Positions 23,780 through 43,032 of a stretch of 64,000 bases of DNA are shown one piece after another. The position numbers were made by a program, and so were the translations under genes. A model generated the notes under the pieces. That model saw only the letters and a program-made list of their open reading frames with translations, searched no databases and had not been told where the DNA came from. The stretch is from positions 290,751 to 354,750 of the forward strand of contig NZ_MVJM01000003.1 in the NCBI RefSeq assembly GCF_002156385.1, in the 5' to 3' direction. The stretch is from Halalkalibacter urbisdiaboli. GTDB lineage: Bacteria > Bacillota > Bacilli > Bacillales > Bacillaceae_D. The first letter of the stretch is position 1. Every line of letters starts with the position of its first letter.

Positions 23780-25447
23780 TTAAACTTCCATAATAATTGG
23801 TAAAATCATTGGTTTTCGCTTCGTTCTCTCATACAAAAATGGTCCAAGTAAATCAGTCATTTCGTTTTTAATCTCGGACCATTGTGTTGTCTTTCTTTCC
23901 ATAACATCTTCAAGGTGCTTTGCCAAAAGCTTTTGAGCCTCATGAATTAAATCACTTGACTCTCTCATGTAGACAAAACCTCTAGAGATAATATCAGGAC
24001 CAGCTGTTACTTTAAATTCTTTCATGTTTAAACTAACAACGATGACAACTAATCCTTCTTCAGATAAGATACGACGATCCCGTAAAACAATATTACCAAT
24101 GTCACCAATTCCATTTCCGTCCACATAAACCGAATTTGAAGGAACTTTACCTACAACTCCTGCTTCATCGGGATGAAGAGCGAGTATGTCGCCATTATCC
24201 ATGATGAAACAATTTTTCTCTTCAACTCCACAATCTTGGGCAAGCTTGGAATGCATCTTTAACATTCGATATTCACCGTGAATTGGCATGAAGTATTGTG
24301 GCTTCATTAATCGTAGCATTAATTTTTGTTCTTCTTGTCCACCATGACCTGATGTGTGAATGTCATTTAATGAACCGTGAATGACATTAGCCCCAGCACG
24401 ATAAAGCTGATTGATTGTTTTGCTCACGCTTAATGTATTTCCTGGTATAGGTGAAGAAGAAAACACAACCGTATCGCCAGGAATAATTTGAATTTGACGG
24501 TGAGTGCCAAATGAAATTCTTGATAAAGCCGCCATCGGCTCACCTTGGCTTCCTGTACAAAGAATGGTTACCTGGTTATCAGGGAGTTTATTTAGCTGTG
24601 TATGGTCAATAAATGTGCTTTTTGGAGCACGGATGTAGCCAAGATCTTGTCCAATTGATAGCGCCGATTCCATACTTCTTCCGAAAACAGCAATTTTTCG
24701 ACCATGCTGTACCGCTGCTTCAACAACCTGTTGAAGGCGGTGTATGTTTGAGGCAAAGGTGGCAAAAATAATCCGACCTTCTACCTTTCTGAAAATGTTA
24801 TCAATGCTTTCACCGACTTTTCTTTCGGACATAGTGAATTCTGGAACTTCACTATTGGTACTATCAGATAAAAGACAAAGTACACCCTCTTCTCCAATTT
24901 TCGCCATTTTCGTAAGGTTTGCTGGCTCTCCAACTGGAGTAAAGTCGAATTTGAAGTCGCCGGTATGAACGATGTTTCCAGGTGGTGTTTTCACAACAAT
25001 ACCATATGCATCTGGTATGCTATGAGTCGTACGGAAAAACGAAACAGATGTTTTCGTAAACTTCACGATTTGATCTTCGTGTATTTCATGAAGTTTTGCT
25101 TTTCGAAGTAAACCATGTTCTTCTAATTTTCCTTTAAGTAAACCTAATGCAAGTTTACCACCATAAATCGGGATATTGACCGCTCGTAGTAAGTAAGGAA
25201 TTCCACCGATATGATCTTCGTGACCATGTGTTATGAATAATCCCTTAATCTTGTCTTCATTTTTAACTAAATACGTATAGTCTGGGATGACATAATCAAT
25301 GCCGAGAAGTTCGTCCTCTGGAAACTTAATCCCGGCATCGATAAGAATAATCTCATCTTGAAACTGTACTGCGTAGGTGTTTTTACCAATTTCTCCGAGT
25401 CCACCTAATGCAAATACAGCTGTTTGATTATTTTTTACTTGTTTCAT
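23780..25447 (-). CDS. rnjA: Ribonuclease J1
   Basis: Metallo-beta-lactamase/beta-CASP ribonuclease with 5'-3' exonuclease and endonuclease activity, central to mRNA turnover and rRNA maturation in Bacilli. 555 aa, identical to the B. subtilis length. Zinc motif HGHEDHIGG at about residue 74; further motifs HTGDFKFD (about 163), SDSTNS and the late HTSGHGG (about 366). The stop codon of rpoY directly abuts the ATG (TAA then ATG), so the two are translated as a pair. Confidence 0.97.
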
Positions 25448-32625: not shown

Positions 32626-34035
32626 ATGGTTGTTGGAGATTTCGCACATGAAGTAGACACGCTTGTTATTGGATCAGGCCCAGGGGGATATGTTGCAGCG
32701 ATTCGTGCAGCACAACTTGGACAAAAAGTTACCATTGTTGAAAAAGGATCACTAGGCGGAGTTTGTTTAAACGTAGGTTGTATTCCTTCTAAGGCATTAA
32801 TTTCTGCTGGACATCGTTATCATAATGCTAAGCATTCTGATGATATGGGTATTGTTGCAGAAAATGTTTCTATTAATTTCGATAAAGTTCAAGAGTGGAA
32901 AGCATCTGTTGTAAATAAGTTAACAGGTGGTGTAGAAGGACTTCTAAAAGGTAATAAAGTTGAAATTGTTAAAGGTGAAGCTTACTTTGCTTCTGAAAAT
33001 TCAGTGCGTATCATGGATGAAACGAGTGCACAAACGTACAATTTTAAAAATTGTATTATTGCAACTGGTTCTAGACCAATTGAGTTACCAGCATTCAAGT
33101 ATTCAGAACGTGTCCTAAATTCGACTGGTGCCCTTAATCTAAAAGAAGTTCCTAAGAAGTTAGTTGTTATTGGTGGTGGATACATCGGTATTGAATTAAC
33201 GGGAGCGTATTCTAACATGGGAACAGAAGTTGTTGTTCTTGAAGGTGGAAAACAAATTCTTCCTGGCTTTGAAAAGCAAATGGCTAAATTAGTTGAACGT
33301 CGTTTAAAGAAAAACGGTGTAGCATTTAACTATGAAGCAATGGCTAAAAGTGTTGAAGAAACTGCTGACGGTGTAAAAGTAACAGCTGAAGTAAAAGGAA
33401 AAGAAGAAGTGTTTGAAGCAGATTATTGCCTTGTTACAGTAGGTCGTAAACCAAACACAGAAGAAATTGGTCTTGAGCAAATTGGTGTTGAGCTTGATGA
33501 GCGTGGTCTAATTAAAGTTGACAAGCAATGTCGTTCAAACATAAAGAACATTTTCGCAATTGGTGACATTATTGCAGGTCCTCCTTTAGCACATAAAGCG
33601 TCTTATGAAGGGAAAATTGCTGCCGAAGCCATTGCTGGTGAAAAGTCTGAAATTGATTATTTAGCGATTCCTGCAGTAGTATTCTCTGACCCAGAATTAG
33701 CTAGTGTTGGGTATGACGAAAAATCAGCAAAAGAAGCTGGCTTTGATGTGGTTGCTTCAAAATTCCCATTTGCTGCTAATGGTCGTGCACTTTCACTTAA
33801 TGATACAGATGGATTTATGAAGCTAATTACACGCAAAGAAGATGGATTAGTTGTTGGTGCCCAAATAGCAGGTCCAAATGCATCTGATATGATCGCTGAA
33901 TTAGGATTAGCGATTGAAACAGGTATGACAGCTGAGGATATTGCATTAACGATTCATGCTCATCCATCGTTAGGTGAAATTACGATGGAAGCAGCTGAGG
34001 TTGCGTTAGGAAGTCCAATTCATATCGTAAAGTAA
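32626..34035 (+). CDS. pdhD: Dihydrolipoamide dehydrogenase (E3)
   Basis: 469-aa FAD enzyme reoxidising dihydrolipoamide with NAD. N-terminal FAD motif [19 protein letters not shown] (about 14-32), the redox-active disulfide [13 protein letters not shown] (about 44-56), a second Rossmann motif VIGGGYIG, and the C-terminal interface HAHPSLGE with the catalytic histidine. AGGGG precedes the ATG, 3 bp after pdhC. Last gene of pdhABCD. Confidence 0.97.
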
Positions 34036-40553: not shown

Positions 40554-40691
40554 AGTAAAATTAAAAAAAGTTTCGACAATAGCCGCGAGAATGTTACAAC
40601 CTTTTACAAGTGGATTTATGATAAGCTAAATTTGTTCATCCATTATGAAGTATGAAGTGTTATGAAGTTTTTCAGGTGGAGGGTTAAAGAA

Positions 40692-41138
40692 ATGGATAAA
40701 TCAGAACTACTTGATGAGTTGCGTCTTGAAGTTGGGACAGTTCCTGATTATGCACAAACATTGCATGATTTTTACGTAGGAATTGTTGAAAAACTGATTA
40801 ATCGAATGAGCGATCGTTTCACAGTCTGTCTATACGAAACCACAGACAAAGCTTTTGTGTTAAAAGTTTGCGCTGGAACGGGTAAAATTAAAAAATATGT
40901 AGCATTTGGGCAGGATTCGTTAAGCATTGCAGCTATTCGAGGAGGCTTGTACTTCAGACAAAACAAATACTTCCAATTTCTTTACATGCCTTTCTACTAT
41001 CAGCATCACCTTAAAGGACAATTGGTGTTTCAAGTCCCGAAAGATTTGTATAGAATAACAGAGGATGATCTTGTCTTCGTAAAAGAGGTTTGTCATTTTA
41101 TTGAAGCCCAGTATAAACGTTATATGCTGAACTACTAA
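40692..41138 (+). CDS. GAF-like domain protein of unknown function
   Basis: 148 aa, single domain. The pattern FTVCLYETTDKAFVLKVCAG...LSIAAIRGG... and a closing helix (TEDDLVFVKEVCHFIEAQY) fit a small GAF-type sensory domain; this is a resemblance, not a firm assignment. No output domain and no membrane segment. ATG 40692 follows AGGTGGAGGG. It lies just before the sr1 locus. Confidence 0.65.
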   Translation: MDKSELLDELRLEVGTVPDYAQTLHDFYVGIVEKLINRMSDRFTVCLYETTDKAFVLKVCAGTGKIKKYVAFGQDSLSIAAIRGGLYFRQNKYFQFLYMPFYYQHHLKGQLVFQVPKDLYRITEDDLVFVKEVCHFIEAQYKRYMLNY

Positions 41139-41140
41139 TA

Positions 41141-41168
41141 ACAGTCTAAGACATTAGGCTGTTTTTTT
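41141..41168 (+). terminator. Terminator after the GAF-like gene
   Basis: ACAGTCTAA / TTAGGCTGT (one G-T pair), 4-nt loop, seven T. Confidence 0.85.
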
Positions 41169-41185: not shown

Positions 41186-41233
41186 TAAGACATACTATTT
41201 AGTGTTGACAATGATAATGTGACATATTATTAT
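41186..41233 (+). promoter_or_regulatory. sr1 promoter with two CcpN-like operators
   Basis: TTGACA (41205-41210), 17-bp spacer, TATTAT (41228-41233): near-ideal sigma-A promoter. TGTGACATATT (41218-41228), lying between -35 and -10, matches the CcpN operator TRTGHYATAYW at every position. TAAGACATACT (41186-41196) matches with one mismatch, 32 bp upstream. In B. subtilis CcpN represses sr1, gapB and pckA on glucose. The match to CcpN is by consensus recall. Confidence 0.68.
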
Positions 41234-41283
41234 TAGATTAAAGATGAAACGTTTACATTATATTAGCAAAGGGGTTGTCATAA

Positions 41284-41403
41284 ATGGGAACGATAGTTTG
41301 TCAAACATGTAATAAGCCGATTGTGTTTTTTGAAGGAGATAAAGTGACGAAGCTTTATGCAGAAGCTAATACATGTAAACGTTGTCAAGAAAAAACGAAA
41401 TAA
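41284..41403 (+). CDS. sr1P: SR1P, GapA-binding small peptide
   Basis: 39-aa peptide beginning MGTIVCQTCNKP, with a CxxC pair near the N-terminus and a second CxxC (TCKRCQ) near the C-terminus, consistent with a small zinc-ribbon-like fold. SR1P of B. subtilis opens the same way and has the same length; it binds glyceraldehyde-3-phosphate dehydrogenase GapA and promotes its association with RNase J1. AAAGGGG lies 9 bases before the ATG. Encoded within the SR1 RNA; rnjA, the partner nuclease, is also in this window. Confidence 0.87.
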   Translation: MGTIVCQTCNKPIVFFEGDKVTKLYAEANTCKRCQEKTK

Positions 41404-41410
41404 AAGAAAA

Positions 41411-41450
41411 AAAGATGAGTGACTTTACATAGTCACTCATCTTTTTTTTT
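41411..41450. terminator. Bidirectional terminator between sr1 and speA
   Basis: Perfect 14-bp stem AAAGATGAGTGACT / AGTCACTCATCTTT around TTACAT, with a long T run on the plus strand and A-rich left flank. Ends sr1 and the leftward speA. Confidence 0.93.
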
Positions 41451-42922
41451 TATCGGATGGCCTGTCGTTCTTTAATGACTCTAAGAGTTTTAAATGTAGG
41501 GTCTTCTGGACCTTGTACGGGCAAACCGACATTTAAGTTTTCTTTAATGTAAGCAAGATTTTCTTCAGAAATGACTTCACCTGGTATTAAAATCGGTATA
41601 CCTGGTGGGTAAACCATAACAAATTCAGCGATGATTCGACCAGCTGATTCGGAAAATGGAATTGTCTCCGTCTCAGCATAAAATGCATCGCGAGGTGATA
41701 AGGCGAGTGTCGGAATATTTGGAACGTAAATAGAAGTTGGCTTCTGCTCATCTGAAGCAGGATGTTCAAGTGCTAATTGAGACAATGCATCTACAAGTAA
41801 GGACATTTTTTCCGTAGAATCACCTATTGAAACAATACAAAGTATGTTATATAAATCTGATAATTCAACTTCAATGTTGTATCTTTCTCTTAACCAGACT
41901 TCCGCATCATATCCCGTTATTCCAAGTCCTTTTATCGAGATAATCAGCTTCGTAGGATCAAGATCATAAGTTGCTTTAGTACCTAGTATTTCTTTACCAA
42001 CACAAGACAGTCCATTTATATCATTGATACGCTCTCTCGTTTCATTAGCAATCGTAATAGTTTTAGAAATTAGTGCTTTACCTTTTGTAGCAAGTTGTTT
42101 CCGTGCGACATCCAGTGAAGATAAAAGGATATAGGAGGTTGAGGTCGTTGTAAGCATACTAATGATCGATTGGACACGTTTTGCTGATACAAGTCCTTCT
42201 TTGACATTTAATACTGAACTCTGAGTCAATGAACCACCTAGTTTGTGTACACTTGTCGCAGCCATATCAGCACCAGCTTGCATAGCTGATAGAGGTAGCT
42301 CATCATGGAAGTGAATATGAACTCCATGTGCTTCATCTACGAGTACAGGAATATGGTAGGAATGAGCTAGTTCAACGATTTTTTCTAAATTGCCTGCAAT
42401 ACCAAAATAGGTAGGGTTTATAACGACGAGCCCTTTTGCATCTGGATGAGTTGCTAATGCCTTCTCAACAGAATCGGTTGTAATTCCGTGGGAGATTCCT
42501 AAATTAGGGTCAATCTCCGGATGAATAAATATCGGTGTTGCCCCAGAAAAGATAATGGCAGACATAATTGATTTATGAACGTTTCGTGGGACGATGATTT
42601 TATCACCAGGACTACATACAGACATAATCATAGTTATAATTGCACCACTTGTTCCTTGTACAGAAAAAAAGGTATGATCTGCACCGAAGGCTTCTGCCGC
42701 TAATTCTTGGGCTTCTCTAATAATTCCGTGGGGATGATGTAAATCATCTAAAGGTGCAATGTTAATTAAGTCAATCGAAAGCGCATTGTCTCCAATAAAT
42801 GATCTGAATTCAGGGTCCATACCATTGCCTCTTTTATGACCTGGAATATGGAATTGAATCGGTTGTTTTTCAGCATGCTCTCGCACACCTGTAAACAAAG
42901 GTGTTAGATTTTGTCGCGACAA
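41450..42922 (-). CDS. speA: Arginine decarboxylase (Orn/Lys/Arg decarboxylase family)
   Basis: PLP enzyme converting arginine to agmatine, first step of polyamine synthesis in Bacilli. TTG 42922 has GAGGTGA 5 bases upstream and gives 490 aa, exactly the B. subtilis SpeA length, opening MSRQNLTPLFTGV. Upstream ATGs have no ribosome site. Motifs: FHIPGHKRGNGMDPEF, then FSVQGTSGAI (PLP phosphate), VDEAHGVH, and the Schiff-base lysine in SVHKLGGSLTQSS (about 232). The C-terminal OKR domain holds YPPGIPILIPGE. Promoter TTTGCA-17-TATACT precedes it. Confidence 0.93.
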   Translation of the reverse strand: MSRQNLTPLFTGVREHAEKQPIQFHIPGHKRGNGMDPEFRSFIGDNALSIDLINIAPLDDLHHPHGIIREAQELAAEAFGADHTFFSVQGTSGAIITMIMSVCSPGDKIIVPRNVHKSIMSAIIFSGATPIFIHPEIDPNLGISHGITTDSVEKALATHPDAKGLVVINPTYFGIAGNLEKIVELAHSYHIPVLVDEAHGVHIHFHDELPLSAMQAGADMAATSVHKLGGSLTQSSVLNVKEGLVSAKRVQSIISMLTTTSTSYILLSSLDVARKQLATKGKALISKTITIANETRERINDINGLSCVGKEILGTKATYDLDPTKLIISIKGLGITGYDAEVWLRERYNIEVELSDLYNILCIVSIGDSTEKMSLLVDALSQLALEHPASDEQKPTSIYVPNIPTLALSPRDAFYAETETIPFSESAGRIIAEFVMVYPPGIPILIPGEVISEENLAYIKENLNVGLPVQGPEDPTFKTLRVIKERQAIR

Positions 42923-42977
42923 CAGGGTCACCTCATTTATCATAAAATACTTGTCTCTTTTTATTAAAACAAAATTG

Positions 42978-43006
42978 AGTATAACAAATTTGTTCCTCAC
43001 TGCAAA
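42978..43006 (-). promoter_or_regulatory. Candidate promoter of speA
   Basis: On the minus strand: TTTGCA (43006-43001), 17 bp, TATACT (42983-42978) with an extended TG motif. About 56 bp before the TTG start. Confidence 0.6.
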
Positions 43007-43032
43007 GATAGAAATTGAAATAATCAACCGAA

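Follow-up and report, generated by a model that had tools for sequence, protein, structure and literature searches.

The small RNA SR1 of Bacillus subtilis and the peptide that it encodes, SR1P, are the closest described counterparts of the locus reported here. SR1P attaches to helices 1 and 14 of GapA and through GapA raises the activity of RNase J1, and SR1 itself pairs with the ahrC mRNA about 97 nt past its ribosome site. The RNA is repressed by CcpN and, to a lesser degree, by CcpA. According to the accessible text of PMC8464778, CcpN binds B. subtilis sr1 in the spacer as well as directly 5′ of the -35 element, and the cre to which CcpA binds lies some 260 bp upstream. Seven complementary regions between SR1 and ahrC are described, and both functions are claimed to be conserved, in the available portions of PMC8501984 and PMC8464778, the former of which confines the inhibition of kinA translation by SR1 to nine Bacillus species.

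The 64,000-nucleotide stretch of Halalkalibacter urbisdiaboli DNA analysed here (the window) contains an sr1 locus that is an ordinary further member of the known SR1 family. Its features are listed below, where TRTGHYATAYW is what we take to be the CcpN box pattern.

41186-41196, plus strand: upstream CcpN-like box TAAGACATACT, matching TRTGHYATAYW at all positions but one
41205-41233, plus strand: sigma-A type promoter, TTGACA-17-TATTAT, 11 of 12 positions
41218-41228, plus strand: second CcpN-like box TGTGACATATT in the spacer and -10, exact match
41240-41448, plus strand: predicted SR1 transcript of about 209 nt (Rfam RF02376), its start placed by inference 7 nt past the -10
41247-41257, plus strand: CcpA-type leader box AAACGTTTACA, like a cre in its core and right half, with the left half off consensus
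41268-41274, plus strand: ribosome binding site AAAGGGG, read in the sequence, 9 bases 5′ of the ATG
41284-41403, plus strand: SR1P frame of 39 codons plus stop, resting on its Pfam match (PF13790) and on constraint
41407-41448, no strand assigned: terminator hairpin from a terminator scan, T/A-flanked at both ends, 13 of 13 model pairs standard
41450-43027, minus strand: convergent speA (Orn/Lys/Arg decarboxylase), Pfam PF01276, 380.9 bits; the start at 42946 was taken for SpeA searches

Family membership is apparent from both the RNA and the peptide. The Rfam SR1 model (RF02376) matches 41234-41448 on the plus strand over positions 1-210 of 210, with 71 bits against a cut-off of 45 (E = 3.1e-11 over the 64 kb), and this is the sole Rfam match in the window at gathering thresholds. 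Translation from the ATG at 41284 yields MGTIVCQTCNKPIVFFEGDKVTKLYAEANTCKRCQEKTK, with CxxC pairs at residues 6-9 and 30-33, and residues 1-36 of this product match the Pfam SR1P family (PF13790) with 61 bits against a cut-off of 26 (E = 1.2e-16). Since the RNA model spans the coding frame, the two matches are not independent. The genome (4,555,038 bases in 12 contigs) holds one copy of SR1 and one of SR1P.

The initial annotation had proposed an SR1-type sRNA with an SR1P peptide beside speA, citing a 39-codon frame with two CxxC pairs and a good ribosome site, a near-consensus promoter and a transcript of about 210 nt; all of this agrees with the features above, the predicted transcript length included, and the peptide homology search that it recommended leads to the SR1P family. 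Other parts of its description need adjusting. The terminator hairpin that it named is present, but the scan gives 18 pairs rather than 14 bp. Likewise, speA is indeed adjacent, but "downstream of pdhD/slp" is a loose description: pdhD ends at 34035, about 7.2 kb from sr1 with several other genes between, and no slp was identified. The hairpin probably terminates both sr1 and the convergent speA, and some three bases separate its stem from the SR1P stop codon. Immediately 5′ of sr1 lies an open reading frame of 148-158 residues (40662-41138, plus strand) with a terminator-like site of its own at 41140-41163. Pfam and NCBIfam gave no match to this frame at E <= 0.001; relatives of it stand on the same strand 5′ of SR1P in 13 of 67 named loci, and one is present in 4 of 12 stretches from outside the order.

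Replacement changes in SR1P are far rarer than synonymous ones. Over codons 2-26, the window sequence differs from its nearest relative with a pS of 0.65 and a pN of 0.11 and from 67 relatives with values of 0.73 and 0.22; pooling the 68 sequences gives 0.76 and 0.16, from 2,278 non-independent pairs with silent sites near saturation. Residues M1, G2, C6, C9, I13, K20, V21, L24 and Y25 are invariant in all 68, and the CxxC of the second half is kept in 60. Within this set the window peptide lies on the divergent side, at 38-67% identity to 23 relatives: P12, F15 and D19 occur in none of the other members and V14 is rare. A comparison of SR1P with solved structures returned no relative at E <= 1, and a structure prediction from 24 sequences (mean pLDDT 62.7, pTM 0.29) was too poor for a fold search. 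On sequence grounds, the peptide half of SR1 is well supported here.

The arrangement of the locus is common among its relatives. Among 80 named loci compared by their SpeA, the nearest belongs to Bacillus solitudinis FJAT-45086 (87%, best segment), followed by B. suaedae and Halalkalibacter species. In 67 of the 80, SR1P and speA are arranged tail to tail; the remaining 13 include contig ends and at least one locus (L074) in which SR1P lies beyond the stretch, and are not to be read as absences. SR1 RNA is found in 30 of 41 genomes of the family at E <= 0.001 (26 above the cut-off), and SR1P in 325 of 397 genomes (118 of 135 genera) sampled from the order and in 114 of 299 sampled from the class, 90 of those 114 being labelled outside the order. 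The accessible text of PMC8501984 reports SR1 in 139 species, from Bacillus and Geobacillus only. In GTDB terms the spread seen here is wider. Many of these named genera, however, were split off from Bacillus, and NCBI may place every one of them in Bacillales; we therefore claim no contradiction. No phage copy of SR1P was found at E <= 0.01, and among plasmids a single record, a B. velezensis replicon of 806,695 bp, has one. That record carries the name "GapA-binding peptide SR1P", which qualifies the initial annotation's remark that the frame is short enough for routine gene calling to miss; in NCBIfam, though, nothing matched the frame at E <= 0.001.

SR1P also occurs in other settings. Among 12 stretches around SR1P matches from outside the order (L222-L233), a SpeA-like protein adjoins in five (L224, L227, L230, L231 and L233, with 47% identity in L233). 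Paralogues away from the speA site lie in sugar-phosphate operons (L183, L194 and L181; genomes G334 and G351). In L183 (about 978-2757) a phosphofructokinase, SR1P and an RpiB-type isomerase follow in a row on one strand, and in L194 (about 669-2535) two SR1P copies stand 5′ of an RpiB-type gene, with a GntR/FCD regulator oriented divergently; L181 has a GntR/FCD gene too. The L181 copy and one L194 copy are preceded by GTATAC repeats, not by CcpN-like boxes. Two to seven SR1P matches each were found in G351, G334, G410, G384, G137, G091 and G061, some of them in tandem about 200-250 nt apart (L176/L188, L182/L189, L184/L191 and L194/L196). A second SR1P type, MQILICKECEETIEYAEYKKVVKIYSTCE, shares a common non-CcpN upstream block in L185-L187, L192 and L193.

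The promoter region of the window's sr1 carries its CcpN-like boxes at the places published for B. subtilis. Two such boxes (at most one mismatch), 30-34 bp apart, precede SR1P in 55 of 67 loci, with L134 left out of the count for its short upstream sequence, compared with 1.8% of 160-nt segments picked at random from these loci. A genome-wide search for two exact CcpN boxes found none; the sr1 pair itself carries one mismatch. In this genome a ccpN-like gene (HTH_11 and CBS domains) adjoins a Kinase-PPPase gene, and a box of CcpN-like pattern, found by eye, precedes a gapB-like gene. The names gapA, gapB and ccpN are presumptive, assigned from recognised domains and neighbours without a curated equivalog.

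A further box lies in the leader. Within the 75 nt that precede the start codon, 46 of 68 loci, the window among them, carry the motif AARCGYTTNCA, where the rate in the 64-kb window would predict 0.002 per 75-nt stretch; over 160 nt it is present in 47 of 67 loci against 1.7% of random windows. Of 40 loci that have both, 28 begin this box 32-33 bp past the second CcpN-like box; in the window the distance is 29 bp. Because what we take to be the full cre consensus fits just 2 of 68 leaders, and not that of the window, we refer to the box as CcpA-type rather than as a cre. That consensus does fit within the SR1P frame of the window at 41373, probably by chance. The segments 41247-41260 and 41370-41385, which are complementary over at least 11 bases, both resemble CcpA sites. 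If it is a true CcpA site, the leader box would shift the presumed site of CcpA action on sr1. It is not named in the searched portions of PMC8152036, PMC8501984, PMC7430163, PMC8464778 and PMC10448178, a literature that stops short of the primary papers on sr1 control, and we make no claim of novelty.

The partners through which SR1P acts in B. subtilis are encoded as well. RNase J1, which the initial annotation had placed in the window, lies at 23780-25447 on the minus strand (NF047419, 979.6 bits, cut-off 820), and the genome contains two GAPDH genes. GapA ends in YIAKQGL here, in YIASKGL in 1gd1, and in YIAKKGL or YIAKQGL in B. subtilis-type genomes. Its position 332 is Gln by the numbering of 1gd1 and Lys when the initiator Met is counted; section 4.2 of PMC8152036 calls Lys332 of GapA decisive for SR1P.

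We consider it very probable that the locus is an SR1 gene that makes SR1P, is repressed by CcpN, and yields a peptide acting via GapA and RNase J1. The gene, its peptide family, the constraint on it, the promoter, the boxes and the partner genes are observed elements of this account, and from them we infer expression, regulation, GapA binding and the effect on RNase J1. The locus would be the SR1 gene in a Bacillaceae genome of alkaliphile type that stands near B. solitudinis, and this gene is probably transcribed from its own sigma-A promoter. To judge by the boxes, CcpN most likely shuts sr1 off on sugar, and CcpA at the leader box probably helps this repression. The RNA of about 209 nt would be translated into the 39-residue SR1P. 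As in B. subtilis, this peptide may bind GapA, the GAPDH of glycolysis, and increase the amount of it that reaches RNase J1 under conditions in which sugar is synthesised instead of consumed.

Within this account, it is an evenly balanced question whether the window's SR1 RNA is merely the mRNA of SR1P. The constraint described above sits on amino acids, and the gap from stop codon to terminator stem is only about three bases. Stability of the leader and frame points the same way. In 75 homologues (77 minus L087 and L131, which have no recognisable promoter), this part of the RNA, taken without the terminator, folds like its shuffles, with a mean z of -0.09, and the consensus fold of 24 homologues is empty (-0.34 kcal/mol). 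On these values leader and frame show no conserved RNA fold, although 20 of 27 pairs of the first Rfam domain are standard in the window. Against the peptide-mRNA reading stands the RNA of the window itself, which reaches a z of -2.3 without the terminator (-6.59 with it) and in whose predicted fold the leader pairs with the frame end in a long helix; this helix is not a common feature among relatives. The lack of detected ahrC pairing, described below, also favours a role as mRNA alone, but failing to detect pairing does not establish its absence, and the search for pairing was confined to ahrC.

A full dual-function RNA as in B. subtilis, in which SR1P is joined by an ahrC mRNA pairing that blocks translation, seems doubtful for this genome. 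The claimed conservation of both functions and the seven complementary regions favour it, as does the Rfam structure, whose pairs are standard in the window at 20 of 27 positions in the first domain, 4 of 5 in the second stem and 13 of 13 in the terminator; 8 of 45 pairs are non-standard, none of them in the terminator. The failure to detect a conserved fold in leader and frame weighs against it, and so does the pairing analysis. Pairing was scored by accessibility-corrected duplex energies for SR1 nt 110-180 against ahrC +70 to +140, which span the published G/G′ contact, in 28 of 31 genomes (our own plus 30; G031 had no ahrC match, G035 has ahrC at a contig end, and in G032 SR1P was missed by the pattern). 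This comparison of SR1 with the ahrC of the same genome, which the initial annotation had suggested, gave no pairing above chance at G/G′ in the window: 33 of 60 shuffles did equally well or better. Set among non-cognate pairs, the cognate one came 17th of 28 and 23rd of 28, and ahrC was outdone by 21 of 40 other genes at the G/G′ region and by 16 of 40 over the full range. Across genomes, cognate pairs have only a slight edge (mean -4.99 against -4.58 kcal/mol for non-cognate ones).

Good G/G′ pairing, matched by no more than 3 of 60 shuffles, was nevertheless seen in 5 of the 28 genomes, namely four family members (G027, G012 and G013 with 0 of 60; G020 with 2 of 60) and the B. subtilis-type G250 (2 of 60). 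Of the other B. subtilis-type genomes, G391 (4 of 60) shows the pairing as well, and G176 (19 of 60), G149 (35 of 60) and G313 (44 of 60) do not. The same 40-gene set beats ahrC at G/G′ once in G250, three times in G391, once in G012 and never in G027. As a test that separates only 2 of 5 B. subtilis-type genomes, takes contacts one by one and leaves CsrA out of account, this analysis has limited power, and the null result in the window is a failure to detect, not a proof of loss. Given its chance-level standing against shuffles, other genes and non-cognate pairs, ahrC pairing is unsupported in the window genome and appears patchy elsewhere. Of the initial annotation's term "dual-function", the peptide half therefore stands and the base-pairing half is left without support.

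Finally, a chance frame or decayed relic, which the divergent residues at positions 12, 14, 15 and 19 might suggest, is exceedingly improbable in view of the family matches, intact frame, promoter, ribosome site, terminator and constraint.

Returning to an SR1 gene whose peptide acts via GapA and RNase J1, we tentatively suggest one extension of this account, which is possible though on balance improbable. SR1 in this lineage may have become, or may always have been, essentially a peptide mRNA, with the ahrC arm gained and lost in separate branches and SR1P kept, and CcpA may repress the gene directly at a conserved leader box, three turns of the helix away from the second CcpN site, and not only from far upstream. 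The present analysis establishes what this short gene is and indicates, in a new genus, the half of a textbook dual-function RNA for which there is evidence. Should the peptide half be the one that is widely kept, the link that SR1P makes between glycolysis and RNA decay would be ancient, and pairing with ahrC would have been added in particular branches. The leader box and the SR1P paralogues outside the speA site are two side leads that go beyond ordinary membership in the family.

A comparison with the known systems brings out what is shared and what differs. The window peptide resembles the SR1P family (PF13790) in its 39 residues, its MGTIVCQxC start, its EKV/DKV-TxLY core and its second CxxC, and is set apart by P12, F15 and D19, which no other of the 68 sequences has. 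With SR1 of B. subtilis (RF02376), the locus has in common a transcript of similar predicted size (about 209 against 205 nt), the SR1P frame, the terminator, the convergent speA and a sigma-A promoter with two CcpN-like boxes, whereas pairing with ahrC at G/G′ is undetectable here and pdhD lies 7.2 kb off. The two also differ in the apparent position of CcpA, for which the accessible literature on B. subtilis names a cre about 260 bp upstream and the window has a CcpA-type box in the leader; the same AARCGYTTNCA box is nonetheless shared by at least four B. subtilis-type loci (L047, L052, L054 and L059).
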